Made by a program: the position numbers and the translations under genes
Part shown: in pieces, positions 8,450 through 24,146 of the stretch
Numbering within the stretch: the stretch's first letter is position 1
Layout: each line of letters starts with the position of its first letter
Assembly: GCF_007846095.1 (NCBI RefSeq)
Contig: NZ_VOEI01000001.1
Location: 62,001 to 126,000, forward strand
Origin: Mucilaginibacter achroorhodeus
GTDB taxonomy: Bacteria; Bacteroidota; Bacteroidia; Sphingobacteriales; Sphingobacteriaceae
Direction: 5' to 3'
DNA: 64,000 nt
The notes under the pieces: model-generated
Told to the model about the DNA's origin: nothing
The model's input: the letters and a program-made list of their open reading frames with translations, nothing else
Databases searched by the model: none

Positions 8450-9988
8450 CTATTTCTTAAAATTATTCTGCAACACAATGAACGGTAAATGTTCATTCCA
8501 GGTTGGTGCAAAATTAGGCTGAAACATAAATCCGCTGGCGTAATTGCCTAATAATATATCCGGTTTACCGTCTTTATTAATATCCGTTACATCCATGCTC
8601 ATCCAACGGCCATATTGGCTTACGGGCGCGCTGTGTGGCTTAAACTGCATTGGTTTTTGTTGCTCAAAATAGATAAACTCCTCTGCGGGCTTTTCTTTCA
8701 TATCGGCAAAGAATGCGATAGTGGCAATGTCAATATCGCCATCACCGTCAAAATCGGTTGCCACAGCTTTAGTTGCACCATTTATCGGGTAAAACCATTG
8801 TTGCTCAAATTTGAAGTCACCTTTGTTTTTGTAGATGTATAGGCCGTGATAGGGTTTTAAAATGCGGGAGTCATGGAAATTGTAGCCGCAGGTGTATATC
8901 AGATCAAGGTTACCATCATGGTCAAGGTCGGTCAACTGGAAACTGGTAGATCCATTCACCGGTGGGAACTGGAGTAGCTCTTTTGTCGTAAATCCGCCCT
9001 TTTGATCATTCAGATACAAAGCTAATCCTTCGTTACCAATGCCATAAAGCACCATCAGATCGGGCCAGCCATCTTTGTTAAAATCCTGTGCTATGGCTTG
9101 TACCGCACCTGCCCTATCAGCAATAGTTGTCTGCTTTAGTGGTTTATCGTTTGCATCAGTCTTTAGCAAGTAAACACCACCTTTTTTGAAACCCTCACCG
9201 CATACTACAATCTCATCTTTGCCATCCTTATCAAAATCAGCACTGATGGTTTGTACGGGTCTCGGCATGTCACCGGCAATGTCAAAAGTCTTGTTGCCGC
9301 CATTTAATTTAAAACCCTGTATACGTCCGTTTGGGTAATCGACATGATCTATGCGACCAACTGCAGATATAACGGCTGTACCATTATTTTGCAGTTGTAT
9401 ATCCGTAGCACCCGATGAAAGCGTAGTGAGTACTTTGGGTTTAAACTCGGTATCCCACTCGGTTAAATTAGAAGCCACCAGGTCACTGGTGTAGATCTTC
9501 CCCGTAGCAGGATCACCTTTAATGGTGGTTGTAAAAGATACATCTGTAACCTCATTTGGCTTACGTAAAGTAAAGCCTGCCCAATCGCTACTTAATGCAA
9601 CCGGCGCCTGAGCGGGTTTTAGCTCTGCAGGTGCAATTTTGTTATAGTAATCAACTATCGCCTGCCAGTGTACTAAAGAGATCCCACCTGTATCTGTCGG
9701 CTTTTTAAAAAAATCGCTGCCGTAGGTAGATATCTTAAGGTAATCAGCCATTACAGGCAGGGCATGCATACGCCATACATCTTTAGTAAGCGCGTTAGCT
9801 GGCACCAGGGCATGGCAATTTGTACAGTACTGCTGGGTAAGGTACTTACCATCTGCAACAACATCGCCCGTAAGCTTATAACTGGCGGCAGTTTTTGGCT
9901 TACAGCCTTCGATCCCCGCACTTATTGATAGCAGCACCAAACCTGTTAGCAACGCACTTACGATAAAAGAATTACGTTTTAAACTCAT
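8450..9988 (-). CDS. Lipoprotein with one c-type heme and FG-GAP/VCBS repeats
   Basis: A 512-residue exported protein. The lipobox-like GIEGC gives C29. A mono-heme cytochrome region follows, with CTNCH at C55-H59 and a possible methionine ligand near M80. The rest (about residues 150-510) is FG-GAP/VCBS repeats with Asp-rich calcium loops such as DFDKDGKDE, DFNKDGWPD, DLDHDGNLD, DFDGDGDID and DINKDGKPD, forming a predicted beta-propeller. It is the last gene of the operon, 14 bp after the haloperoxidase. Haem plus propeller suggests a surface redox module; the function is inferred only. Confidence 0.85.
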   Translation of the reverse strand: MSLKRNSFIVSALLTGLVLLSISAGIEGCKPKTAASYKLTGDVVADGKYLTQQYCTNCHALVPANALTKDVWRMHALPVMADYLKISTYGSDFFKKPTDTGGISLVHWQAIVDYYNKIAPAELKPAQAPVALSSDWAGFTLRKPNEVTDVSFTTTIKGDPATGKIYTSDLVASNLTEWDTEFKPKVLTTLSSGATDIQLQNNGTAVISAVGRIDHVDYPNGRIQGFKLNGGNKTFDIAGDMPRPVQTISADFDKDGKDEIVVCGEGFKKGGVYLLKTDANDKPLKQTTIADRAGAVQAIAQDFNKDGWPDLMVLYGIGNEGLALYLNDQKGGFTTKELLQFPPVNGSTSFQLTDLDHDGNLDLIYTCGYNFHDSRILKPYHGLYIYKNKGDFKFEQQWFYPINGATKAVATDFDGDGDIDIATIAFFADMKEKPAEEFIYFEQQKPMQFKPHSAPVSQYGRWMSMDVTDINKDGKPDILLGNYASGFMFQPNFAPTWNEHLPFIVLQNNFKK

Positions 9989-10002: not shown

Positions 10003-11328
10003 TTAATTCTCTAACTTAAGCGTATTCCAAATATAATTTCCAATTTCCCTACCCTGCTTAGCCGCCGCATCAACACTAAATTTATAGTGTATACCGCCAT
10101 AATACCTGCTTATAGATGTTTCATCACAAGCCTGGTAAAATGATTTAAAGTGCCTTTGCATGCCTATGTATCGCAGATCGCTGGTATCCTGATATTCAAA
10201 ATTATCACCAAACAGATGAGTTAAAACCACTGCTGATGCGGCACTAATGTCGCTATGCCCGCTCGGATATTCAGGGAACGGAGGTGTTTGCAGCAGCGGC
10301 AGCCATTTAGGGTCTATTTTATCATTTATCACCGTAACCGGCCTTATGTACTCCGTGGTGTATTTAACCTGCCAGCCGCAAATAAAAGCATCGTAAAGGG
10401 CAATGGCTGTCATGGCATAAGCCTGGGCGGTTTTGGCAGCATCCGCCTTTGATTTTTTGCAGGCTATGGCGGTAATACCTATCCAGTGGCCGCCGGGGGT
10501 TATCTTTTTATTTACGAACATCATGTGCCCGTTGTGCTGTATCACAAATGGGTTATCATCCCAAAACTTAGCGATCTCTACCTGTTCTTTAGTTAGCTTT
10601 TTGCTTTGTTCGTAAACATGAAGGTTTTGCTTAAAGTACGTGCTGTTTTTATCCTCGCTGTAAGGCGGTGGCGGCGGCAAAGGAAAATCCGAAGACGATT
10701 TTACTACGAAAGTTTCCATGGTTCCCCAGCAAAACTCTACCCCATCAAGATAATCGGGAGCGGTTGGGCGCCATTTGCCGTTATCACGGCTCCCTAAAAA
10801 GCGTGGTTTGCCTCTTGTTTTGGCGTAATTGTCAAATTTTGCCCTTGCTAAAACAGCCTTACCAATGGTATCCCCAAATGCTAACGAGCGATTAAAGGTC
10901 TCCTCATCAAGATTATCCTTATACATGGCAAAAACCTTGTCTTCGTATCGCTTCAATGTATCAACCGAGAAAGTAACCTTATGGGCAACGGTGAAAAGCG
11001 CCCTGGTAGCAGCAAGAGCGTAGTTATACTTTAGCCCTTTTTGCGGGACAGGCATAGTTTTAAATCCCTTGAGCTGGTTGGCTATAGAATTGTATTTTGG
11101 ATTTTGGAACCTCATGGCCTCGTAAGCTGCCAGCGTTGTGTATCCATAAATGCGGCTGGCAACCGGCGGGCTAAAAGCATCATATATGATAACCTGGGTT
11201 AGCTGGTCAACATTCTCGTGTAAAACATCGGTATCGCTTTTCAGCTTTATCTTTTGTTTGTGGTTACAGCCGGCAATAATTAAACTTATCGTAAAAGCAG
11301 CGACTAAAACCTTCAGGCTCCTCATCAT
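10003..11328 (-). CDS. Vanadium-dependent haloperoxidase / PAP2-type lipoprotein
   Basis: A 441-residue lipoprotein (LIIAGC, C21) of the vanadium haloperoxidase/PAP2 phosphatase superfamily. The three oxyanion-binding motifs are present in order: K322-x6-R329-P330, P355-S-G-H358, and S407-R408-x5-H414. The long all-helical N-terminal part and GGIHYKF context resemble bacterial haloperoxidases more than short membrane PAP2 enzymes, and there are no internal membrane helices. Either halide oxidation with H2O2 or phosphomonoester hydrolysis is possible. It sits between two FG-GAP proteins with 13-14 bp gaps, in an operon downstream of SusC/SusD. Confidence 0.88.
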   Translation of the reverse strand: MMRSLKVLVAAFTISLIIAGCNHKQKIKLKSDTDVLHENVDQLTQVIIYDAFSPPVASRIYGYTTLAAYEAMRFQNPKYNSIANQLKGFKTMPVPQKGLKYNYALAATRALFTVAHKVTFSVDTLKRYEDKVFAMYKDNLDEETFNRSLAFGDTIGKAVLARAKFDNYAKTRGKPRFLGSRDNGKWRPTAPDYLDGVEFCWGTMETFVVKSSSDFPLPPPPPYSEDKNSTYFKQNLHVYEQSKKLTKEQVEIAKFWDDNPFVIQHNGHMMFVNKKITPGGHWIGITAIACKKSKADAAKTAQAYAMTAIALYDAFICGWQVKYTTEYIRPVTVINDKIDPKWLPLLQTPPFPEYPSGHSDISAASAVVLTHLFGDNFEYQDTSDLRYIGMQRHFKSFYQACDETSISRYYGGIHYKFSVDAAAKQGREIGNYIWNTLKLEN

Positions 11329-11341
11329 TATGCGTTGTAAA

Positions 11342-14300
11342 TTAATTTAAGGGTATAGTTCTCGTTTGGCCCTTATTATTGGTTACCGTAACAGCGGCCA
11401 TTGTATCGTCAATATTAAAAAATCTGCCCGATTGTGACAAGAACGACCCACCATTATAAAACTCCTGCTTAGCTAATTTTCCGTTTTTATATTTGATTGT
11501 AGCATACATATCCATAGGTTGTAGCGCTACGGCATTAGGAGATTTTTTAAGTTGAAATACTTTTAAAGGGCCTTTGTGCTGGCTGGCGGCTAACAAGTAA
11601 TTGCCGTTGGCACCGCGTAGCTTAACCAAACCCTTACCATCACCCGGTATATAAATGCCGCTTTGCATAATGCTTAACGGTTTAAACCCACCTTTACCAT
11701 CGCCCTTAAGCATTAAGCCGTTAAAGGCATCGTAGCGGCCGTTGCTAATGTCAGATCCGTAATCGTTACCGTTAAGTATCACATCTAAGTTGCCATCATG
11801 ATCGAAATCGTCGATCACCATACCTGCAAGTTGCGACATCTGGGCCTCAATTGGCAATGTCATTAATGTGAACTTACCATGCCCATCGTTACGCAAATAA
11901 CCAGATCTTAGATCGTTAGCCTTTAAACGGATTGCGCCTTTACGCATCTCCGGCGTAATAACACTATCCATGGTTGCTACCGCAAAGCTTTTATAGTTTT
12001 GGAACTTAACCCGCATGCTGATCATCTGCTTAACAATGTCATCACGCGTATGCGCCGGGAACTCCTGTAGCTTGCCTTCTTTGTCCCTTAAAAACAGCGA
12101 TGGGAAAGCGTCATAGCTATCATTATTATCAAAATCCTTTGCAGTTATGTACATCGGGTACTGGTCCGTTGCGCGGTAGAATGTATTTAGGCCCGTATTA
12201 CCTACGATGTAATCAATGTCGCCATCATGGTCAAAATCACCACCGGCTATGGTGTTCCACCATCCCAGGTTATTCTCAACCCCGGTAGAAGCGGTCATAT
12301 TCTTAAACACCCCATGATCATTTTTAAGAAAGGTAAGCGGCATCCATTCACCGGTTATGATCAGATCGGGCCATCCGTCGTTGTCATAATCCGTAAACGA
12401 CGCGTCACAAACCAAACCCAATTTATTTAAACTTTTGGCTACGGTTGGCGTAGCATCAACAAATTTAATCTGCCCTTTTGTGCTCTCGTTCTTCAACACA
12501 AGGCTCGATACCGGTTTAGGATAGGCCCACGGCTCAACCCTGCCGGATACGAAAAGATCAAGCGATCCGTTTTTGTCAAAGTCGACTGCCTTTACACATA
12601 GCTTGCTGGTAAAATTTGCAGGCAGGGCGTTGGGCTGTAAGGCAAAGTTTCCTTTACCGTCATTAGCATAAATCCTATCCTGGTAAGCCTTTGAATTTGG
12701 CTCCTGCTCGTAGCCGCCGCTTGCTATATACAGATCAAGGTCGCCATCGCCGTCGGCATCAAACAAAAGCATGCCCTCATCTTTAAATTGCACAGTGGTA
12801 GAGGCAGGCTCCAAAGCACGTTGGTTAAAGGTGCCGTTGGCTTGCTGCAAAAATAGCTGAGCAGGATATTTTGAGGTACCGCCAACAACCATATCATCAA
12901 AGCCATTGCCGTCAATATCACCTACCGCAATTGCAGGCGTATACTCACTAAATTTGTGCGGAAGCAATTTCTGAACATTAAAGTCAATGTAATCATCATC
13001 CTGATGTTTATAGTTGATGCCTAAGGCTTTGGTTACTTCAGCAAAAAGAGATCGATCGTTTACGCCGCCAATTTTAAAGATATAAGGGGTTTTAGCATTC
13101 TTAATGTTCACCGTAAGCGTTTGGTCGGCTTTAACGTTGGCCAGCGTTTGTTGCAAGCCATTCTGCCATTTAATAACTACCGAGTCAACCTTAGCTACTT
13201 TGCCCAAACCAAAATGGGCTATGTTTTGAATGGTTGATAAATAGCCTCTGAATGGCGTATTCTCATAAACCTGGTGTTTACCGTTGTTGTAATAAATATC
13301 TGCCCAGGCGCCTATGCCATCCCTATTTTGAGCAGAGCCTTCAAATTTAATTTGGAGGTAATGGTTATTGTCTTTATCCTTATCACGCGATGTATTACGA
13401 TACACAAATGCCTCATCATCAATATTATTGATGATCATATCCATTGCGCCATCATTATCCAGGTCGGCATAAGCACAGCCATTAGAAAACGATGCTATGT
13501 CCATGCCCCAGGTTTTGGTAACATCTTCAAACTGCAATTTACCGTCGTTACGAAAAGCGTAATTAGGGATCTTTACAATCGGTATCTGATTTAAAACCTG
13601 CTTTTTTGATGCCAGTGCAAACGACTCGTTTCTGAAAGCAATAAAATCATGGTCGGTAACATCTCTTGGGTAACCGTTGGTAACTACGATGTCCCTGAAG
13701 CCATCGTTATCAAAATCGGTTATCATAGGCCCCCAGCTCCAATCTGTTTGGGCTACGCCACTCATAAATGCAATCTCGCTGAATGCAGGAGCACCTACCG
13801 AATCATTTTGACCCAAACGCGGACCCTGGTTTAGCTGAAGGGTATTATGATTATACTGATACTGATAGCCGTAAAAGTCAAAGTTTTGGTATAACTGGTA
13901 AGTTGTGCCGGGCATAAACATCTTTTTCCGATAGTTATCCTCGGGGTCCATATCCAGTTCAAAAACGTCCGCGAGGCCATCATTATTGATGTCCTGTATA
14001 TCCTGCCCCATGGCGCTGGTAGCGGTATGTTTAAAATATTCCTGCGAGCGATCGGTAAAAGTACCGTCGTGATTGTTAATGTACAGGATGTTATTAGGTA
14101 GGAAATCGTTGGTTACATAAATGTCTTTCCAACCATCCCTGTTAATGTCTACTGTTGAAGTTGCATGCCCATATCCCTCGATCAGGATACCGGCTTCTTT
14201 TGAAACATCCTTGTAAACTGGATGCTTTAGTACAGGATCATAATCGTTCCTGAAAAGTTTACCCGTGCTGCGGGCCGAGCCATCCTTGATCAATGGCCTA

Positions 14301-14911
14301 AACTGGCTGGTATTGTCAGTAGATTGCGCTTCATTAACGGTGAGGTACATATCCAGATCACCGTCATTATCATAATCGAAAAACGAAGCCATTGTGGAGT
14401 GTACGTTGATCTTTAAGCCGTACTCCTCTGCAGATTCTTTAAAGTGAGGGACACCATCTTTGTCAGGTCCCTGATTAATGTATAGTAAATTTGTGCGTTT
14501 GTTCGCATCGTTTAAAAGAGTATTACATACGTAGATATCTTTTAAGCCATCATTGTTGATATCAACAACGGCAACACCCCTGCCCCAGCCGCCTTTGCCT
14601 CCAACGCCTGCCTTATCTGTTACATCATCAAATTTAAAATCACCTTTATTGATGTACAGCTTGTTTGGTACTGCATTACCAATAAAATAAATATCCTGTA
14701 AGCCATCATTGTTGAAATCGCCTAAACCAACACCGCCGCCATTATAAATATTTAATTTATCTAACGGATTTATACTGTCGTTCTCTACAATAAGATTGTT
14801 GAATTTTATACCGGATTGAGAGGATGATATACGTTCAAAAAGTGTTGCCTTTTTACACGCGGTAACCGATAAAGCAATAGCTATTACAAGTAAGTATCTT
14901 AGGGAAGTCAT
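11342..14911 (-). CDS. Giant FG-GAP/VCBS lipoprotein with ASPIC/UnbV domain (CRTAC1 family)
   Basis: A 1189-residue lipoprotein (SVTAC, C19). Many FG-GAP/VCBS calcium loops are visible, for example at residues 65-73, 117-125, 179-187, 255-263, 307-315, 399-407 and 483-491, then again after residue 650. Between them at about 517-603 is an ASPIC/UnbV domain (HYLQIKFEGS...GIGAWADIYY...HFGLGKVAKVDSVVIKW). Such proteins are thought to form surface beta-propellers for binding ligands, but no activity is proven. It lies 81 bp after susD across a hairpin, and 13 bp before the haloperoxidase. Confidence 0.88.
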   Translation of the reverse strand: MTSLRYLLVIAIALSVTACKKATLFERISSSQSGIKFNNLIVENDSINPLDKLNIYNGGGVGLGDFNNDGLQDIYFIGNAVPNKLYINKGDFKFDDVTDKAGVGGKGGWGRGVAVVDINNDGLKDIYVCNTLLNDANKRTNLLYINQGPDKDGVPHFKESAEEYGLKINVHSTMASFFDYDNDGDLDMYLTVNEAQSTDNTSQFRPLIKDGSARSTGKLFRNDYDPVLKHPVYKDVSKEAGILIEGYGHATSTVDINRDGWKDIYVTNDFLPNNILYINNHDGTFTDRSQEYFKHTATSAMGQDIQDINNDGLADVFELDMDPEDNYRKKMFMPGTTYQLYQNFDFYGYQYQYNHNTLQLNQGPRLGQNDSVGAPAFSEIAFMSGVAQTDWSWGPMITDFDNDGFRDIVVTNGYPRDVTDHDFIAFRNESFALASKKQVLNQIPIVKIPNYAFRNDGKLQFEDVTKTWGMDIASFSNGCAYADLDNDGAMDMIINNIDDEAFVYRNTSRDKDKDNNHYLQIKFEGSAQNRDGIGAWADIYYNNGKHQVYENTPFRGYLSTIQNIAHFGLGKVAKVDSVVIKWQNGLQQTLANVKADQTLTVNIKNAKTPYIFKIGGVNDRSLFAEVTKALGINYKHQDDDYIDFNVQKLLPHKFSEYTPAIAVGDIDGNGFDDMVVGGTSKYPAQLFLQQANGTFNQRALEPASTTVQFKDEGMLLFDADGDGDLDLYIASGGYEQEPNSKAYQDRIYANDGKGNFALQPNALPANFTSKLCVKAVDFDKNGSLDLFVSGRVEPWAYPKPVSSLVLKNESTKGQIKFVDATPTVAKSLNKLGLVCDASFTDYDNDGWPDLIITGEWMPLTFLKNDHGVFKNMTASTGVENNLGWWNTIAGGDFDHDGDIDYIVGNTGLNTFYRATDQYPMYITAKDFDNNDSYDAFPSLFLRDKEGKLQEFPAHTRDDIVKQMISMRVKFQNYKSFAVATMDSVITPEMRKGAIRLKANDLRSGYLRNDGHGKFTLMTLPIEAQMSQLAGMVIDDFDHDGNLDVILNGNDYGSDISNGRYDAFNGLMLKGDGKGGFKPLSIMQSGIYIPGDGKGLVKLRGANGNYLLAASQHKGPLKVFQLKKSPNAVALQPMDMYATIKYKNGKLAKQEFYNGGSFLSQSGRFFNIDDTMAAVTVTNNKGQTRTIPLN

Positions 14912-14992: not shown

Positions 14993-16828
14993 TTAGTAGC
15001 CTGGGTTTTGTTTCAGAGTACCTTTAGATAAGTCGATCTGAGTTTGTGGGATCGGGTAAAGTTCATTCTTGTTAGCAGTGAACTTCGCAACCTTCATAAC
15101 CGCTGAAGTGAATGAATCACCAAAGTCGCGGGTATTTTTCAGGAACTTCTCAATTTCTGATGACATAAAGCCTGTTGCAGGGCCGCCGTTAACAGCATCC
15201 CAACGAGAAAGGTCAAAGAAACGATGTCCTTCCATACCCAACTCAAGTTTACGCTCAAAGTATACTGCTTTACGAGCATAAGCCTGCCCGTTTGTTACAA
15301 ATTGATTAGTATATAAACCAACTTTGTAGTTAGCAGCAAACTGGCTGTTATCAACAATTGGTTTGGTAGCATCACCGTTGGTATAACCGGTTAACTTACC
15401 TTTAACCCAACCGCTTTGATCAGCAGCACGAGCACGAACAAGGTTCACATAAGTTTGCGCATTTGCAAGTTCGTTAGCTTCTACCGCACACTCTGCAGCC
15501 CATAGCAATACATCAGCGTACCTGATAGCATTGTAGCTGTTTGATGTTGCCTGATTAGCAGCCCAACCGCCGTAGCTGTCAGAAGTTGTTGCTTGTGCAG
15601 CTTTGTAGTAAACGTTTTTAATTGGCAGGTACGGACCACCGTTTGGCTGGTCGCGGGCCCATGCAGCACCCGGGCAAATACCCCAGTCTAAGTATGGTAT
15701 ACCACGACGGCCAACTGACCAGTCTAACCTTGCATCTAACAATTCATCGCCAGGAGTAAATACTGTACCAGCAGGAACAGCCTGGTCGTTTTTGATATAA
15801 CCGTTTTGGTAAGTATCGATCAACGGTAAACCGTTTGCATCTACTTTAAACGAGTTTACAAAATCAAATGTAGGCTGGAAGAAACCGCAGCAACCGGCAG
15901 GGCCGCCTGATGGGAAGTTTAATACGCTACCAGCGTTACCATTTAAACCGTTTGCACCATCATTTACAGACGTTTGCACCACAAACACACCCTCAGGGCC
16001 GTTTTTGGTTGACGGGTTAAAGTTGTTTGCATAAGCGCCTAAAGCATATTTTGCACCAGAAGAGGTAACGCCGTTAGCAATTACATCTTTTAATATGGTG
16101 TACGCAGCAGAATATTTATGATCAAACATCAGGGTTTTAGCTTCAAATGCAAGCGCTGCCCATTTGTTAGCACGACCGATCTGAGACTGTGTAGCAGGAA
16201 GATCTGCTGCGGCTGCTGCAAAATCTGCCTCTATTTTATCCCAAATTGGGCCACTGTTTGGCACGTTGTAGTTGTTAGCCGCGTAAGTGATGGTCTCATC
16301 AACATAAGGAATGTTTTTCCAAAGTTTGGCAGCCTCCAGGTGAAAAAATCCACGCAGGAAACGTGCTTCAGCGATGTATTGCTTCTTTTGATCATCAGAA
16401 ACAGAACCATCTTTAACCTGTGGCAACAACCTTAGCACGTCGTTTGCGCGCTGTACACCAGCATAGCATACGCGCCATTTATCGTTCAGGTAATCGTTTG
16501 CGCCTGTAGCGCTAAATGCTTCAAGGTTAGCAGCAGCCGGCTGGTCACCGGGGTTTGAACCTTTAAATGCATCACCCGCAACAACGCTACCATACACCCA
16601 GTTATCGGTACCGGTTTCCCATGGGCTACCTGCCTGGCCGTCAAACACGCCATCTACTACAGAATATGCACCAATAAGGACACCGTCAACACCTGTGCGG
16701 GTTGCAATCACTTCCGGAATCAGCGAGCCTATCGGCGCCTGATCCAGATATTTTTTACAAGAGTAAGTTAAACCGACCAGCAGAAGCGTGCCCGGGATAA
16801 TTACCTTTAGTTTAAAGCTTGTTTTCAT
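14993..16828 (-). CDS. SusD/RagB-family outer-membrane substrate-binding lipoprotein
   Basis: A 611-residue surface lipoprotein (LTYSC, C24) that captures substrate and delivers it to the SusC channel. The N-terminal KKYLDQAPIGSL segment is a standard SusD opening. Helical TPR-like regions (EARFLRGFFHLEAAKLW; YNAIRYADVLLWAAECAVE) and the C-terminal ERKLELGMEGHRFFDLSRW and NELYPIPQTQIDLS segments are typical. The family member length is normal. It lies 32 bp after susC. The ligand cannot be read from sequence; the flanking GH3 gene hints at a glycan or glycoside. Confidence 0.95.
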   Translation of the reverse strand: MKTSFKLKVIIPGTLLLVGLTYSCKKYLDQAPIGSLIPEVIATRTGVDGVLIGAYSVVDGVFDGQAGSPWETGTDNWVYGSVVAGDAFKGSNPGDQPAAANLEAFSATGANDYLNDKWRVCYAGVQRANDVLRLLPQVKDGSVSDDQKKQYIAEARFLRGFFHLEAAKLWKNIPYVDETITYAANNYNVPNSGPIWDKIEADFAAAAADLPATQSQIGRANKWAALAFEAKTLMFDHKYSAAYTILKDVIANGVTSSGAKYALGAYANNFNPSTKNGPEGVFVVQTSVNDGANGLNGNAGSVLNFPSGGPAGCCGFFQPTFDFVNSFKVDANGLPLIDTYQNGYIKNDQAVPAGTVFTPGDELLDARLDWSVGRRGIPYLDWGICPGAAWARDQPNGGPYLPIKNVYYKAAQATTSDSYGGWAANQATSNSYNAIRYADVLLWAAECAVEANELANAQTYVNLVRARAADQSGWVKGKLTGYTNGDATKPIVDNSQFAANYKVGLYTNQFVTNGQAYARKAVYFERKLELGMEGHRFFDLSRWDAVNGGPATGFMSSEIEKFLKNTRDFGDSFTSAVMKVAKFTANKNELYPIPQTQIDLSKGTLKQNPGY

Positions 16829-16860: not shown

Positions 16861-19800
16861 TTAGAAAGTTACGTTTACACCAAAAATAAACCTGCGCTCG
16901 TTATTTGGATAGTTACCCAAATCAATACCAGGGCTGTTACGGTCAACAGACTGCAACTCCGGATCAAGGCCACTATATTTAGTAGCAGTGAACAGGTTAG
17001 TACCCTGTACATACGCACGCAATTTTTCAAGGCCAATTTTCTTGATTATAGAAGGCTCAAAAGTGTAACCTACTTGAACTGACCTCAATTTAAGGAATGA
17101 ACCGCTTTCAACATAGTATGAGCTGATCGCATCAGAGGTACTGAAGCTTGTGGTTTTTTCTAAAATTGGAGCTTTAGGATTGGTGTTGGTTGGTGTCCAA
17201 GAGTTGTTTAACAGGTCTAAACTTTTGTTACCGGTTTGTGAACCGTAGAAGTTAGTCCAGTATTTGATGGTGTTGTATATATCAGCACCATGCGAACCAT
17301 AGAACACTGCACCTAAATCAAACTTTTTGTAGCTAAGATTTAAGTTTACACCATAAGTGAAATCCGGCAGTGGGCTACCGATCTTTGTACGGTCAGCATC
17401 AGTGATGCGGCCATCACCATTGGTATCCTGGTAACGGAAACGGCCAGGAGCTGCATCTGTTTGATAAACAGGAGTTGATCCGAAAAGATCCGGTTTTTGC
17501 TGAGCGTTAAGCGCATCAATTTGAGCCTGGTTATTCCAATAACCAATCACTTTATAACCGTAGAAGTCGCCGATGCTGCCACCTACCTGGTTGTAAACTA
17601 CGTTACCATTACGTATACCGGTAGTGTAGAATGGTGCACCAAGTTCGGTGATCTTATTGTTAAGCGTTGTGATGTTAGCGCCAATTGAATAGGTAAACCC
17701 ACCTGAAGCACCGTGGTAGTTAGCGCTGATATCAAAACCTTTGTTAACTACTGTACCGAAGTTAACAGCAGGGATAGCAGCATCCAAACCACCTACAGTT
17801 GCAGGAAGAGGTACATTTACCAAAAGATTGCTAATGGTTTTTCTGTAATACTCAACTGTAAAATCGAAATGGTTAAGGATAGACATATCGAAACCTACGT
17901 TGAATATTTTGTCGGTTTCCCAAGTTGTGTTAGGGTTACCCAATGAGTTTGAGAAATAACCGGGAACTACTGAACTTGATGAACCGGTAATAGGGTATGA
18001 AGAACCACCTGCACTACCGCCAAACGCAGCATAAGCACTATTTTGACCAACGTTTGCGTTGTAACCAAGAGTACCGTAGCTACCACGGATCTTCAAGTCA
18101 TTTAACCATGCATTACCTTTAAGGAATTCCTCTTGCGATGCTCTCCATGCTAATGAAACCGCAGGGAATGTACCCCATTTTTGGCCTGAAGCAAATAGTG
18201 AGCTACCATCACGACGGATAGTTGCACCTAAAATATATTTATCGTCATAGGTATAATCTAAACGACCGAAGAATGACATGATCCTGTTAAGAGGTGTATT
18301 GTTTGCGCCAAACGAGCTGTTTGCTGTGGTTTGTCCAGACTGACCATTGGTGATGTTTGCGTAGAATGGATCAAGTGAGAACAGGTTTTTTGCAGTTGCG
18401 TTAATGTTACGACCGGTAAAACCTCTTTGCTCAAAACCACCCAATAAACTGATATTGTGTTTGCCAAATACTTCCTTGTATGCAATGGTGTTACTCCAGT
18501 TAAAGTTAGTTGCATATAAAGCACCTTCATTATAGCTATTGTTACCGCCATGCGCTTCACCACTATCATACTGGCGATAGCCAATGTTGTAATAATAACG
18601 GTTATAAATGTCTGCACTGTAAGCTGTACGCGCTGTAAAGTGCTTCAAGAAATCAGCCTCAGCAAAAACGGTACCTTGAATACCGTACTCATTAGTATGA
18701 GTTGTAGTTTGGCGCTGTTGAATACCCACAGGGTTTAAAGCGTTACCTAAAGCAGCCGGACCAGCGTAAGTACCACCAAGGTTACCTGCAATATCATATA
18801 CAGGGATAATTGGAAGCGTACGGTACGTTTCAGAAATTGGGTTACCTTCGTTTTGGTTACCACCGTTACCTAAACCACCGCCACCATTAGGTGAAGTAGC
18901 ATAATAGAAACTTAGGTTCTCTCCTAAACGGATGTGATCTTTTACGTTAAAGGTTGTGTTAACACGGGCCTGGTAACGTTTAAAGTATGTATTAATAAGT
19001 GTACCTTGTTGGTTAGTGTAACCAAATGATAAGAAATATGAGCTTTTATCGCTTGCCGCGCTTGCACTTAATGAGTGCTGTTGGATTGGAGCAGCTTTAA
19101 AGATCTCGTGGAACCAATCTGTACCTGCTCCTCTAACAAATTTCTGGATCAGGTAATCTTTAGCCGGGTCATTATCTAAGTGATAGTTTGGTAAAAAGTT
19201 ACCTGCTTGTGCCTGGTTAAATACACCCTTAGAACCCGCGCCTGATTGATAACCGTAATCGTAAAATTTACCATTGTTGCCTTTCATCAGGTCGTTGTCA
19301 GGGTCAACTTTTGCAACTAATTGCTCGTACTGGTCTGCATTAAGCAAGTTGAAAACATTGCCACTTAAAGGCTGGGTAGTACCGTAGAAAGCATCGTAAG
19401 AAATTGACGCTTTGCCTTGTTTACCTTTTTTAGTTGTAACCACTACAACACCGTTACCACCGCTCACACCGTAGATAGCAGCTGCACCAGCATCCTTCAA
19501 TACAGAGATAGACTCTATATCACTAGGATTGATGTTAGAGATGCTTCCGGTTTGCAAACCGTCAACAACATAAAGCGGTGAAGAGTTACCGAAGTTACTT
19601 ATACCACGGATACTTACCTGTGCACCCGCACCAGGGGCACCTTGTGTAATCACGTTAACACCGGCCGCCTGGCCCTGTAACATAGTTTCGGCACTTACAG
19701 TTGGTACCGATTTAGCTGCAGTAACGTTAACCGTTGTAACAGAACCAGAGATGTCCTTTTTACGCTGAGCGGTATAACCTGTTACTACAACCTCGTTTAA

Positions 19801-20118
19801 AGTATTGTTAGCAGACCTTAAAGTAACGTTAACAACGTCGCTTTGGCCTACTGTTACTTCCTGAGTGGTGTAACCCAGGTAAGTAAACACAAGCACATCG
19901 CCCGGCTTTACAGATATACTGTAATTACCGTTTACATCTGTTTGTGTACCTGTGGTAGTACCCTTTAACAATACAGAGGCGCCAACTACCGGCAACTTGT
20001 CGTCGCTGCCAATAACCTTACCTGTGTGCTTTGTTTGAGCTGTAACTACCAGCGAAGATACCATGCATGCCAGTAGCAAGCACAATGCTCTCCCTTTGCG
20101 GAGTAAACTTTTAAACAT
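16861..20118 (-). CDS. SusC/RagA-family TonB-linked outer-membrane transporter
   Basis: A 1085-residue TonB-dependent OM receptor. A signal peptide ends near VVTAQ (residue 28). A carboxypeptidase-D regulatory-like domain follows at about 33-105 (GKVIGSDDKLPVVGASVLLKG), then the family junction NEVVVTGYTAQRKKDISGS, a plug domain (VSIRGISNFGNSSPLYVVDG; DIESISVLKDAGAAAIYG), and a 22-strand barrel to the terminal NVTF. There is no N-terminal STN domain, so it is not an anti-sigma-signalling type. It heads the operon with susD. The 5' region is unusually long and contains a candidate Nudix-regulator operator. Confidence 0.96.
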   Translation of the reverse strand: MFKSLLRKGRALCLLLACMVSSLVVTAQTKHTGKVIGSDDKLPVVGASVLLKGTTTGTQTDVNGNYSISVKPGDVLVFTYLGYTTQEVTVGQSDVVNVTLRSANNTLNEVVVTGYTAQRKKDISGSVTTVNVTAAKSVPTVSAETMLQGQAAGVNVITQGAPGAGAQVSIRGISNFGNSSPLYVVDGLQTGSISNINPSDIESISVLKDAGAAAIYGVSGGNGVVVVTTKKGKQGKASISYDAFYGTTQPLSGNVFNLLNADQYEQLVAKVDPDNDLMKGNNGKFYDYGYQSGAGSKGVFNQAQAGNFLPNYHLDNDPAKDYLIQKFVRGAGTDWFHEIFKAAPIQQHSLSASAASDKSSYFLSFGYTNQQGTLINTYFKRYQARVNTTFNVKDHIRLGENLSFYYATSPNGGGGLGNGGNQNEGNPISETYRTLPIIPVYDIAGNLGGTYAGPAALGNALNPVGIQQRQTTTHTNEYGIQGTVFAEADFLKHFTARTAYSADIYNRYYYNIGYRQYDSGEAHGGNNSYNEGALYATNFNWSNTIAYKEVFGKHNISLLGGFEQRGFTGRNINATAKNLFSLDPFYANITNGQSGQTTANSSFGANNTPLNRIMSFFGRLDYTYDDKYILGATIRRDGSSLFASGQKWGTFPAVSLAWRASQEEFLKGNAWLNDLKIRGSYGTLGYNANVGQNSAYAAFGGSAGGSSYPITGSSSSVVPGYFSNSLGNPNTTWETDKIFNVGFDMSILNHFDFTVEYYRKTISNLLVNVPLPATVGGLDAAIPAVNFGTVVNKGFDISANYHGASGGFTYSIGANITTLNNKITELGAPFYTTGIRNGNVVYNQVGGSIGDFYGYKVIGYWNNQAQIDALNAQQKPDLFGSTPVYQTDAAPGRFRYQDTNGDGRITDADRTKIGSPLPDFTYGVNLNLSYKKFDLGAVFYGSHGADIYNTIKYWTNFYGSQTGNKSLDLLNNSWTPTNTNPKAPILEKTTSFSTSDAISSYYVESGSFLKLRSVQVGYTFEPSIIKKIGLEKLRAYVQGTNLFTATKYSGLDPELQSVDRNSPGIDLGNYPNNERRFIFGVNVTF

Positions 20119-20854
20119 GAGATTGAGATTTAGTTGATTAATATATTTGATTTAAGACCTTATTCTTGGTGAGATATAGGAACATGGCCGTACCTGCACG
20201 TTCGCCGTCGTGCGGTGGTAGCATACAATAAGCTTAGAGAAGTTCTTTTTTCAGGGTAAAAGCCTAAGCCTTCGGTTTTGAGATATGAAAAAAGAAAATG
20301 TAAAAGTTTAATCATGTATTTACACTATCCTATTAAAATGTTCCTACTAAAACCAGGATATGGAAGCGGCTGATGTTGCCTCACTTTAATATCTGGTTAA
20401 TTTGTTTTTGGGCTTATTTAAAAAGAACCCGGTTTATATTGGCATTTATCTAATATAACTAAGGTGTATACGCTACACAAGATTTATATCAGAATTATAA
20501 ATTATTCATAAATGCAATCAATTAATTAATAAAATATCAGCATATCTCCTGCCGCTTATATTTTTATTAAAAAAAAGGCAATTTTTGTATCTAAATAATA
20601 AGCTCATTTACAGCGTTAAAAGTGCTAATTATCCACAATTACCAACACTTTAAGGGATATAATAGATTTCCCGGCCCAGCAAAACGCTGCATTTAAAAAC
20701 TTCGCGATTTTTTTTAAGAAGTCTGACCCGCCGGATGTATAAGATGTTAACGAATTATTAAATTTTAAAGTGGTTAATAATGTCTAAACGACATTTACTT
20801 GTACAAAATACACGAAGTCGATTTTTCTTGCACTGTAAAAGGTTTGTATAAACA
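20119..20854. other. Long gene-free region upstream of susC
   Basis: About 740 bp with no convincing gene, very AT-rich in its distal half. It holds a perfect GTGTA-N5-TACAC palindrome at 20464-20478 and a one-mismatch version at 20799-20813. Near susC there is a 9-bp inverted repeat (CTTTTTTCA at about 20247 with TGAAAAAAG near 20285) and a GC-rich hairpin (GCACG...CGTGC near 20196-20213). A long regulated leader for susC is plausible. I could not place a promoter with confidence. Confidence 0.55.
20464..20478. promoter_or_regulatory. Candidate operator upstream of susC (GTGTA-N5-TACAC)
   Basis: The perfect palindrome GTGTATACGCTACAC lies 346 bp upstream of the susC start. Flanks are shared with the second perfect site at 23341-23355: AAG before and AA after. 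By composition, one perfect match is expected about 0.06 times in a 64-kb sequence, so two matches in adjacent intergenic regions of one locus are unlikely to be chance. The likely binder is the Nudix-winged-helix protein at 23409. Confidence 0.6.
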
Positions 20855-20887
20855 AAAACAGCTTTTGCATTGTGCAAAAGCTGTTTT
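20855..20887 (-). terminator. Rho-independent terminator of the GH3 gene
   Basis: A perfect 15-bp stem (20855-20869 with 20873-20887) with a 3-nt loop and a U-rich tail on the minus strand, 30 bp after the GH3 stop. It insulates bglX from the susC leader. Confidence 0.85.
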
Positions 20888-20916
20888 AATGACAGTTTAT
20901 TTAATTTATTTATAAG

Positions 20917-23226
20917 CTATTTCATCCAATTAACAGTAGCAGATTCGGTAATATCAGAGTTGGTACCTACTTCGATAATGAACTTGCCCGGCTCCCAGTC
21001 ATACCTCAGATCGCTATTAAAGAACTTCAATTTGTCGGGCGTTATCGTAAAGCTTACATCTTTCTTTTGGCCTACCTGAAGCGTGATCTTTTTGAAATCT
21101 TTAAGCTCCTTTACCGGCCTGCTGATGCTGGCCTCCGGATCGCCTATATATAATTGCACAGTTTCCTCTCCTGTATAAGAACCCGTATTAGAAACCGTAA
21201 CCGTTGCGGTAAGTGTTTCGTTGCCTTTAAGGTTGGTTTTGCTGAGCTTTAAATTACTATACTGGAATTTCGTGTAGCTTAAGCCATAGCCAAATGGATA
21301 AAGCGGTGAGTTATCAATATCGAGGTAATTAGATTTAAACTTTGTTGGACCGTTAGTGTAAGGGCGGCCGGTATTTAAGTGGTTATAATATAACGGTATC
21401 TGCCCTACGCTGCGCGGAAATGTTGTGGTTAACTTTCCTGAAGGGTTATAGTTACCAAACAATACGTTAGCAATAGCATTACCGGCTTCGGTGCCCGGCG
21501 CCCATACATCTAATATAGCGGTTGCATTATCATTTTCCCATTGCAGGGTAAGCGGGCGCCCATTAAATAGCACCAACACCATAGGCTTATGTAGTTTTGC
21601 AAGTTCCCTGAGCATTTTTTGTTGACTTTCGGGTATGCTGATATCAGACCGGCTTGATGACTCACCGCTCATACTTTGCGACTCTCCTACTACAGCCACG
21701 ATGATATCGGACCTCTTTGCCGCTTTAACAGCATCCTCGATCATATCTTCAGGCGACTCCTTATCTAAGGAAACCATGCCCGGGCCAAAGTTTAAACGTT
21801 TGATAAAAGTTGTATCATCAGTAATGTTGCTGCCTTTGGCGTAATTGATCTTTACCTTATCGCCAACCACACGCTCAATGCCCTCCATCACGCTTACCGA
21901 TTTTTCCCATTCGCCACCGATAACCCAGGTGCCCAGCATATCGCGTTTGTTGTTTGCCAAGGGGCCAACCAAAGCTATGCTGCCACCGCTTTTCTTTAGC
22001 GGCAATATCTGGTTATCATTTTTTAGCAGTACAAAAGAATGCTCCGCAGCCGAACGGGCCGCAACACGGTTAGCAACCGTCATGATATCACTTTTCTCTC
22101 TCGCGGCATCAAGCGATTTGTATGGATTATCGAACAAGCCTAATTTATATTTAGCTTCCAGTATCAAACGGCAGGCCCTGTCAATATCGGCCATGTCTAC
22201 TTTTTTCTCTTGTAATGATTTCTTAAGTGTTTTTAAGTAACCTTCGCCTACCATGTCCATATCTAAACCGGCATTAATAGCACGGGCTGATACCGTTTTA
22301 AGGTCGCCGAGGCCGTGATTGGTAACCTCGTTAAGTGAGGTATAATCTGAAACCACGAAACCTTTAAAGCCCCATTGCTTGCGAAGCAGATCTGTAAGCA
22401 GCCATTTATTAACGGTTGAGGGCACACCATCCACCACGTTAAATGAACTCATGATACTGCCAACACCGGCATCAACGGCCGCTTTGTAAGGCGGCAGGTA
22501 ATAGTTATACATTGCCAGGCGGCTCATGTCAACCGTGTTGTATTCGCGGCCAGCCTCCGCAGCACCATAAAGTGCGAAGTGCTTTACGCAAGCCATAACA
22601 GCATCTGTATTTTTTAGGCTGGTGCCCTGGTAGCCATGCACCATAGCTGCAGCAATGCGACCGCCCAGGTATGGGTCTTCGCCGCTACCTTCCGAAATAC
22701 GGCCCCAGCGTGCATCACGAGCAATATCAACCATTGGAGAAAACACCCAGTTCAAACCTTCGGCAGTTGCCTCTTTCGCGGCAATACGTGCAGATTGTTT
22801 GATGAGATCAAGATCCCACGTAGCAGACATACCCAGTGGTATGGGGAATATGGTACGGTGACCGTGGATAACATCCAAACCAAATATCAAAGGTATATGC
22901 AGGCGAGACCCTTTAACGGCAGCCTCCTGCATTTTACGAACTTCGGCAACACCGTATAAACCGAAGATGCCGCCAATGGTGCCGTTCTTAACGCCATCGC
23001 CGATACCGTTATTAGTAACCGAGCCCGTGATGGCCATACCGCCGGTAACCAGGTTAAGCTGACCTATTTTTTCATCGACCGTCATTTTCTTCATCAGGCC
23101 GGTTACATAGGCGTTCATCTTTGCAGTTTCTGCAGCAGTTTGTGCATTTACATTTATACTGCAAACGCTCATTAATAAAGCAGCACCTATAAATGCTGCA
23201 CTGTTACGGGTAAATTTTTTTTTCAT
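20917..23226 (-). CDS. bglX: Glycoside hydrolase family 3 beta-glucosidase, periplasmic
   Basis: A 769-residue GH3 enzyme, the usual BglX length, that releases terminal beta-D-glucose (or related sugar) from oligosaccharides or glycosides. The signal peptide ends near NVNA-Q (residue 28). The GH3 N-terminal barrel shows DVIHGHRTIFPIPLG, GRISEGSGEDPYLGG and KHFALYGAAEAGREYN; the nucleophile is D294 in GFVVSDYTS. The C-terminal GH3 domain and a fibronectin type III-like domain complete it. It is divergent from the Nudix regulator and upstream of susCD, so it probably processes what SusCD imports. Confidence 0.95.
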   Translation of the reverse strand: MKKKFTRNSAAFIGAALLMSVCSINVNAQTAAETAKMNAYVTGLMKKMTVDEKIGQLNLVTGGMAITGSVTNNGIGDGVKNGTIGGIFGLYGVAEVRKMQEAAVKGSRLHIPLIFGLDVIHGHRTIFPIPLGMSATWDLDLIKQSARIAAKEATAEGLNWVFSPMVDIARDARWGRISEGSGEDPYLGGRIAAAMVHGYQGTSLKNTDAVMACVKHFALYGAAEAGREYNTVDMSRLAMYNYYLPPYKAAVDAGVGSIMSSFNVVDGVPSTVNKWLLTDLLRKQWGFKGFVVSDYTSLNEVTNHGLGDLKTVSARAINAGLDMDMVGEGYLKTLKKSLQEKKVDMADIDRACRLILEAKYKLGLFDNPYKSLDAAREKSDIMTVANRVAARSAAEHSFVLLKNDNQILPLKKSGGSIALVGPLANNKRDMLGTWVIGGEWEKSVSVMEGIERVVGDKVKINYAKGSNITDDTTFIKRLNFGPGMVSLDKESPEDMIEDAVKAAKRSDIIVAVVGESQSMSGESSSRSDISIPESQQKMLRELAKLHKPMVLVLFNGRPLTLQWENDNATAILDVWAPGTEAGNAIANVLFGNYNPSGKLTTTFPRSVGQIPLYYNHLNTGRPYTNGPTKFKSNYLDIDNSPLYPFGYGLSYTKFQYSNLKLSKTNLKGNETLTATVTVSNTGSYTGEETVQLYIGDPEASISRPVKELKDFKKITLQVGQKKDVSFTITPDKLKFFNSDLRYDWEPGKFIIEVGTNSDITESATVNWMK

Positions 23227-23340
23227 CTATAAACAGCTTAAATACGGTAAAAGCCAACATTATTCAAATGTTAACCTATCTTTATAAAATAACTGTAAAA
23301 CTTATTACTATAATTGGCTATAGAATTTACGCCCGGAAAG

Positions 23341-23355
23341 GTGTAAATAGTACAC
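23341..23355. promoter_or_regulatory. Candidate operator between GH3 and Nudix-regulator genes (GTGTA-N5-TACAC)
   Basis: The perfect palindrome GTGTAAATAGTACAC lies 115 bp upstream of the GH3 start and 54 bp upstream of the regulator start, in the only promoter region for both divergent genes. It shares extended flanks with the site at 20464. This placement fits autoregulation plus control of bglX. Confidence 0.6.
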
Positions 23356-23408
23356 AATTGTAGATATTAAAATCAAACAATCAAAGTTTTTTATATAATA
23401 CCCCTTAA

Positions 23409-24146
23409 ATGTTAACAAAGGAGCAGTTAGACGATCATTGGGAAAAGATATACTTAAATCATATATCTATTGACTGCGTTGTGTTTGGTTTTCATGAAGG
23501 CCAGCTCAAAGTTTTGATGCTTAAAAGCAATAATGAAGAAGCCTGGTACCTGCCGGGCGGTTTTGTACTTAAAGAAGAACCTATTGAAGAAGCAGCAAAC
23601 CGAATATTAAAGGAGCGCACCGGCATTGATGAGGTTTTTCTCCGCCAGTTTCATGTTTTTGGCGATCCGGACAGGTCAAAGTTTCATAATGAGATCTATA
23701 AGGATAACAGCTTCTTTAATCAACGTTTTATTTCCATAGGTTACTATGCCTTGGTCGACTTTGTTGATGTTACTCCAATGCCCGATGCTTTTTCTGAACT
23801 ATGCACATGGCGCGATCTTGATGATCTGCCTGCTTTCCAGTTAGACCACGAGCATATCTTCCGTACTGCTTTGGATACCCTCAGGCTGCAGCTTAACTAC
23901 CAGCCTATAGGCTACAGCCTGATGCCGCAGCAGTTTACCATGCCAGAGCTGCAAAAACTCTACGAGACCATACTGGATAAAAAGCTCGACCGCCGTAATT
24001 TTCAGCGCCGGATACTTGGTTTTGGTATTCTTAATAAACTGGAAGAGACACGAAAAGGTGGCGCTCATAAAGCCCCTTACCTATACTCTTTTAACCTCGA
24101 AAACTACCGCGCAGCGCTTAAAGAGGGCCTGCAGGGAGGCTGGTAA
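23409..24146 (+). CDS. Nudix-domain transcriptional regulator with C-terminal winged helix (NrtR/AraR type)
   Basis: A 245-residue cytoplasmic regulator. Residues about 18-150 form a Nudix fold and about 165-235 a winged helix (TMPELQKLYETIL...RRNFQRRILGFGIL). The Nudix box starts normally (G51, E57, R65) but the REUxEE core reads RILKER, so two of the expected catalytic glutamates are lost; this supports sugar or nucleotide sensing rather than hydrolysis. Related Bacteroidota proteins such as Bacteroides AraR control sugar-use genes. Here the regulator is divergent from bglX, with a candidate palindromic operator between them and a second one upstream of susC. Confidence 0.9.
   Translation: MLTKEQLDDHWEKIYLNHISIDCVVFGFHEGQLKVLMLKSNNEEAWYLPGGFVLKEEPIEEAANRILKERTGIDEVFLRQFHVFGDPDRSKFHNEIYKDNSFFNQRFISIGYYALVDFVDVTPMPDAFSELCTWRDLDDLPAFQLDHEHIFRTALDTLRLQLNYQPIGYSLMPQQFTMPELQKLYETILDKKLDRRNFQRRILGFGILNKLEETRKGGAHKAPYLYSFNLENYRAALKEGLQGGW

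Follow-up and report, generated by a model that had tools for sequence, protein, structure and literature searches.

Two conserved AraR-type palindromes probably link a Nudix-winged-helix regulator to bglX and a susC operon in Mucilaginibacter

A gene encoding a 245-aa Nudix-winged-helix regulator of the NrtR/AraR family (positions 23409-24146, plus strand; assigned from domain matches, a PDB match and a tree) is located in the window, i.e. the whole 64,000-nt stretch of DNA that was analysed. It is flanked by a YitT-family gene on one side and, on the other side, by a series of genes encoded on the minus strand. These are: bglX, encoding a GH3 beta-glucosidase (20917-23226; NCBIfam NF011678, scoring 961.1 bits where the cut-off is 666), susC for a TonB-linked outer-membrane transporter (16861-20118; TIGR04056), susD (14993-16828; PF07980), a gene for an FG-GAP/ASPIC-UnbV repeat protein (11342-14911; PF13517 and PF07593), a gene for a PAP2-superfamily protein (10003-11328; PF01569, 13-nt gap to the preceding gene) and a second FG-GAP repeat gene (8450-9988; PF13517, 14-nt gap). 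The five genes from susC onwards are spaced 13 to about 80 nt apart and appear to form one operon, transcribed as one unit, in which the ASPIC and PAP2 genes would be the third and fourth and the second FG-GAP gene probably the last.

Two perfect copies of the palindrome GTGTA-N5-TACAC are present at this locus, GTGTATACGCTACAC at 20464-20478 (ending 346 bp before the susC ATG) and GTGTAAATAGTACAC at 23341-23355 (upstream of bglX), and both are putative AraR-type operators, to which no strand is assigned. The first-pass annotation had described them as the only perfect pair in the window, with about 0.06 matches per 64 kb expected by chance. The scan of all 64,000 nt bore this out, and six distinct perfect sites in the 4,277,435 bases of the genome (four for a reversed control pattern) correspond to 0.06-0.09 per 64 kb; two copies within 3 kb are unusual, because the genome total is only six and that of the control four. 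The flanks AAG and AA, which the same annotation had noted as common to both sites, are indeed present in the window, but AAG is not conserved in relatives. To the right of the bglX site the flank AATTGTA is mostly conserved in relatives, because the predicted bglX -7 box lies there.

With up to two mismatches allowed, the window contained 35 matches, compared with an expectation of 24.0 (sd 5.0; 35 was reached by one of 100 shuffles), which is a mild excess. There was no genome-wide enrichment of one-mismatch sites (112 versus 121 for the reversed control), and a wide regulon built on such sites was ruled out on this count. The one-mismatch site TTGTACAAAATACAC near the 3' end of bglX (20799-20813) was considered as a third operator and rejected, since, with the pattern used, a similar site was found in only one relative (L008). 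The four further perfect genomic copies lie directly upstream of an MFS transporter gene (L003), 34 bp upstream of the pyruvate kinase gene (L004), in the stem of a terminator-like hairpin recognized by eye (L005) and between a TetR-like gene (named by eye) and another ORF (L006).

Of 149 Mucilaginibacter genomes, 107 contain an ortholog or near relative of the regulator (E-value of 1e-60 or better). Among 300 genomes of the order, 46 gave a match at an E-value of 1e-85; 43 of these are from Mucilaginibacter, and 10 of the 11 loci found for named relatives also belong to this genus. From the 107 genomes with a match at 1e-60, 46 distinct ones were hand-picked for long flanks; these correspond to 52 loci minus duplicates (L007, L011, L013, L015 and L017, judged by matching coordinates) and minus L016 (Leeuwenhoekiella, 52% identical), which lacks the core and was left out of the 46-genome count. 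A comparison of the two intergenic regions in relatives, as proposed in the first-pass annotation, revealed that both sites are kept. The core GTGT-N7-ACAC occurs upstream of susC in 43/43 loci with susC in reach (perfect in 41) and upstream of the adjacent bglX in 40/41 (perfect in 30), the exception being L084, where bglX adjoins the regulator and yet the core is absent on the bglX side. The susC-side core begins 325-379 nt before the susC ATG; its spacers take 14 different forms and the half-sites are constant. In the remaining three genomes (L008, L074 and L082) susC is absent from the stretch read, and in L074 it is the ASPIC gene that is preceded by a perfect site, at a distance of about 305 nt. 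Within the 582,255 bases of these 46 genomes' loci, the susC and bglX promoter positions account for every one of the 74 perfect copies and for 87 of the 91 copies of the core.

In five loci (L085 and L087-L090) bglX does not adjoin the regulator, which faces susC, and susC-proximal cores lie between the two, 318-388 nt upstream of the regulator; in three of these (L085, L087 and L088) paired cores about 70 bp apart were found. None of the five has a core within 130 nt of the regulator start, an asymmetric core in L090 lying at 136 nt, just past this cut. In genome G045, bglX retains a perfect site without an adjacent regulator, and the regulator is absent from this genome at 1e-60, which fits either another binder or a recent loss. 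In genome G020, bglX lies about 560 kb from the regulator and an imperfect core ends 41 nt before its ATG. Together, these cases indicate that the bglX-side site tracks bglX better than the regulator. The local regulon predicted in the first-pass annotation (bglX, susCD and the regulator itself) thus stands in part: a link between the adjacent regulator and both bglX and the susC operon is backed by operator conservation and by the family-type operator GTGT-N7-ACAC, while self-control is not, as the site follows bglX, and autoregulation is possible.

Both palindromes stand in near-fixed register with promoter-like boxes, for which patterns were written after inspecting the alignments and counted afterwards. 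The -33 element is TTTG. On the susC strand, the operator is placed between the putative -33 element CTTG (20478-20481, minus strand; its last G common with the operator; 43/43 loci) and the putative -7 element TATATTAG (20450-20457, minus strand), which reads TANNTTAG in 43/43 loci, at a distance fixed in all of them; the -7 consensus is TAnnTTTG, according to the available part of PMC9723704. Along the strand of bglX, 18-21 nt separate a TTTG-like box from a TAnn(A/T)TTG box that shares the first G of the operator in 37 of 40 loci, and the other three bglX sites fail this pattern. In the window, the corresponding putative elements are TTTG at 23382-23385 (minus strand; identified from the alignment), 19 nt before the -7 element, and TACAATTG at 23355-23362 (minus strand), whose last base is common with the operator. 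Such a placement over predicted promoters is what a repressor would need. The susC leader (minus strand) contains two further strongly conserved blocks, at 20119-20160 (immediately before the ATG) and 20295-20315 (about 180 nt upstream), for which neither an Rfam match nor a predicted structure was obtained, and which by eye are absent before 11 other susC-like genes.

The regulator matches PF00293 (NUDIX), PF21906 and PF19368, all above cut-off (NrtR_WHD and AraR_C), and its best PDB match (E-value of 4.6e-40) is AraR of Bacteroides thetaiotaomicron (BtAraR, BT0354; PDB 5bs6, 5dd4, 5ddg and 5deq), which likewise combines Nudix and winged-helix domains. The operator co-crystallised with BtAraR reads GTGTTACTTTTACAC (PMC4666351, Table 2). 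Because the core equals this crystallised operator and AraR is the best PDB match, the palindrome pair is probably a pair of AraR-type operators, acting by repression under the local regulator. As described in the available sections of PMC4666351, Lys179, Asn181 and Lys184 of AraR contact bases and Arg180 intercalates, and base contacts together with minor-groove contacts define GTGT, according to the authors. Every local ortholog in the alignment (51 rows, 46 genomes) retains the intercalating Arg180 as well as Asn181, and R179, R184, H204 and K205 replace Lys179, Lys184, Lys204 and Arg205 of the DNA-contact set, the changes K179R, K184R and R205K being conservative. Of the residues that contact arabinose, Arg86 and His131 are kept in the local orthologs, whereas Arg34 is replaced in every one aligned (by S, T, V, M and others). 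Therefore, arabinose is unlikely to be the ligand, and the regulator is not filed as AraR. Our guess is another sugar or sugar derivative, with glucose freed by BglX as the simplest candidate. The Nudix catalytic box is degenerate by eye, reading GFVLKEEPIEEAANRILKERTGI against GX5EX7REUXEEXGU, with two of the REUXEE glutamates replaced.

The local regulator falls in a clade other than that of BtAraR, although both share the operator GTGT-N7-ACAC and Arg180/Asn181. In the published excerpts available to us, the BtAraR regulon includes glycoside hydrolases and susCD, as does the one predicted here, and araM has tandem sites, unlike the local promoters, which mostly carry one site each. The araMPRDAB linkage is likewise not encountered, as no arabinose genes are adjacent. 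XylR of Bacteroides (BT0791), as far as the excerpt describing it goes, belongs to the same NrtR family and is also sugar-linked; two paralogs of the genome studied here (L020 and L021) group with BtAraR, apart from the local regulator, and one of them may be the XylR counterpart. The available part of PMC12125979 concerns an unrelated XylR, and that of PMC3840689 yielded nothing on the GTGTA-N5-TACAC motif. NrtR proteins (ADP-ribose-responsive NAD repressors) have Nudix and NrtR_WHD domains as well; in contrast to them, the local regulator is linked to sugar genes and scores 107.5 on the NCBIfam NtrR model, far below its 400-bit cut-off.

We consider it likely, with good confidence, that both palindromes are AraR-type operators of the adjacent regulator, which would repress the bglX and susC promoters until a ligand binds. 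This proposal builds on features seen directly in the sequence, namely both sites, the fact that relatives conserve them, their position relative to promoter-like boxes and the retained DNA-contact residues. In the proposed mechanism, a dimer of the regulator would bind both palindromes and, without ligand, keep both promoters, which would be of the sigma-A type, repressed. The operator of bglX begins with the final base of the -7 box and, when bound, would overlie the transcription start, and that of susC would occupy the stretch from the -33 box to the -7 box. Binding of a sugar or a derivative of one to the catalytically degenerate Nudix domain would release the regulator from the DNA, and the GH3 enzyme and the susC-susD-ASPIC-PAP2-FG-GAP operon would then be switched on together.

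The most serious competitor for the role of binder is another Nudix regulator encoded in this genome (L018:1447-2142, minus strand), which adjoins pfkA. A homolog of this paralog is present in 58 of 61 genomes, its helix DKRNFRK equals that of AraR, and Arg34, Arg86 and His131 are also kept. In all 30 loci of the genus (the best 30 matches of 61 genomes) the core adjoins the paralog on its pfkA side. An automatic count gave 26/30, with the sites of L110 and L111 outside its cut and L093 and L107 unparsed, and listing every core gave 30/30. Upstream of the pyruvate kinase gene (pyk), the core is found in 29 of 30 loci, again the best 30 of 61 genomes (in this genome at L004:1501-1515); because of this sampling, both sets of loci are near relatives. 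There are no other cores in the pyk loci and only one further in the 30 paralog loci (L116). Outside the genus, four loci of the same family (L249-L252) carry a perfect GTGTA-N5-TACAC on the pfkA side. The presence of the core at the pfkA and pyk loci makes the motif a code shared within the regulator family, and therefore cross-talk or binding by the paralog is possible. The first-pass annotation had treated the motif as specific to the local regulator, which can no longer be upheld; its concern that the motif might be widespread at unrelated places applies only in the sense that it is shared within one sugar-regulator family, as otherwise it is rare.

Binding of the sites mainly or jointly by the pfkA-linked paralog, with bglX and susCD as outposts of a central-metabolism regulon, would agree with the cores at the paralog and at pyk, the perfect pfkA-side sites, the wide occurrence of the paralog, its AraR-like helix and the bglX of G045, which keeps its site without the local regulator. 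We nevertheless regard it as unlikely, although it is the strongest of the alternatives. The paralog is near-ubiquitous, yet, away from the regulator, the core is missing upstream of all 28 bglX-like genes (at most 60% identity; drawn from the best 30, with 39/45 genomes having a bglX-like match) and from all 14 stretches read at ASPIC-type operons (the listed matches with an identity of 61% or more, partial ones excluded; L170 ends about 490 nt upstream of its gene), a point weakened by the fact that those genes are mostly paralogs and not true orthologs. In one of the 28 bglX-like loci (L242) a core lies downstream of the gene. Full symmetry of the site, moreover, was observed in 41/43 susC-side and 30/40 bglX-side sites against only 2/30 at pfkA and 8/29 at pyk, which suggests a different preference at the local and at the pfkA/pyk sites.

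The near paralogs of the local regulator also bear on the identity of the binder. Six hand-picked ones (L183-L188, about 45-52% identical) group with the local regulators in one clade (100/100); their recognition helices are changed (HRGNF, NRGNF, DISNF and LRPAF), and no core was found near any of the six (44.5 kb). Altered helices accompanied by the lack of a core would fit the local protein as the reader of the site. A phylum search gave 28 further family loci, of which 16 contain a core and 12 do not, and at least one of these 12 (L253) has a DKRNF helix; the correlation between helix and core is hence not a law of the Nudix-winged-helix family. The near paralog L187 adjoins a GH3-like gene.

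Regulators of other families activate susCD operons, and by this analogy, with nothing more direct in its favour, the local regulator could be an activator, or dual-acting, at both sites. This appears improbable, since the operators overlap the predicted core promoters, between the -33 and -7 boxes at susC and on the -7 box at bglX, and since sugar lowers the DNA binding of AraR, as stated in the accessible part of PMC4666351. A chance pair, or RNA hairpins in place of protein sites, is hardly credible despite a background of about four perfect sites per genome, the terminator-like stem at L005 and the pairing of the palindrome arms by RNAalifold, because conservation at two promoters in 46 genomes with changing spacers in our view refutes the former, and against the latter stand the lack of an Rfam match at E-values up to 1 and an alignment fold giving, beyond the palindrome, just a single hairpin of 4 bp at the beginning of the susC coding region, the susC-side site moreover preceding the predicted transcription start.

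Repression by the adjacent regulator would make the local pair look like an already known kind of control, i.e. an AraR-type operator under a sugar-sensing repressor. For Mucilaginibacter, it offers a testable repressor-operator pair for a glycan-uptake operon under a putative one-component sugar sensor. Other clades of the regulator family, among them one tied to pfkA and pyruvate kinase, have the AraR operator code as well. This pfkA/pyk branch is the more surprising part and possibly a glycolysis branch of the family, with the pfkA-linked paralog as a candidate glycolysis regulator; a literature search covering titles and the starts of abstracts turned up no description of glycolysis being controlled by a Nudix regulator. 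We tentatively suggest, without expecting it to be the likelier outcome, that several Nudix paralogs within a single Bacteroidetes cell read one GTGT-N7-ACAC code and that the pfkA-linked one is a dedicated regulator of glycolysis (pfkA and pyruvate kinase). If this is true, polysaccharide uptake (bglX and susCD) and central glycolysis would be wired together through shared operators.

Some further sites were observed with the relaxed pattern GTGT-N6-TACAC, which gave 28 matches genome-wide on both strands (13+15) versus 21 for the control (10+11), the intergenic ones including L189, L194, L198, L202 and L204. Core sites lie closely upstream of GH3-like (L189), sugar-isomerase-like (L194) and TonB-receptor-like (L204) genes, all named by eye. 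The site L202:1501-1515, located between genes before an ORF that by eye is antiporter-like, reads GTGTTACTTTTACAC and is identical to the operator core of the AraR co-crystal.
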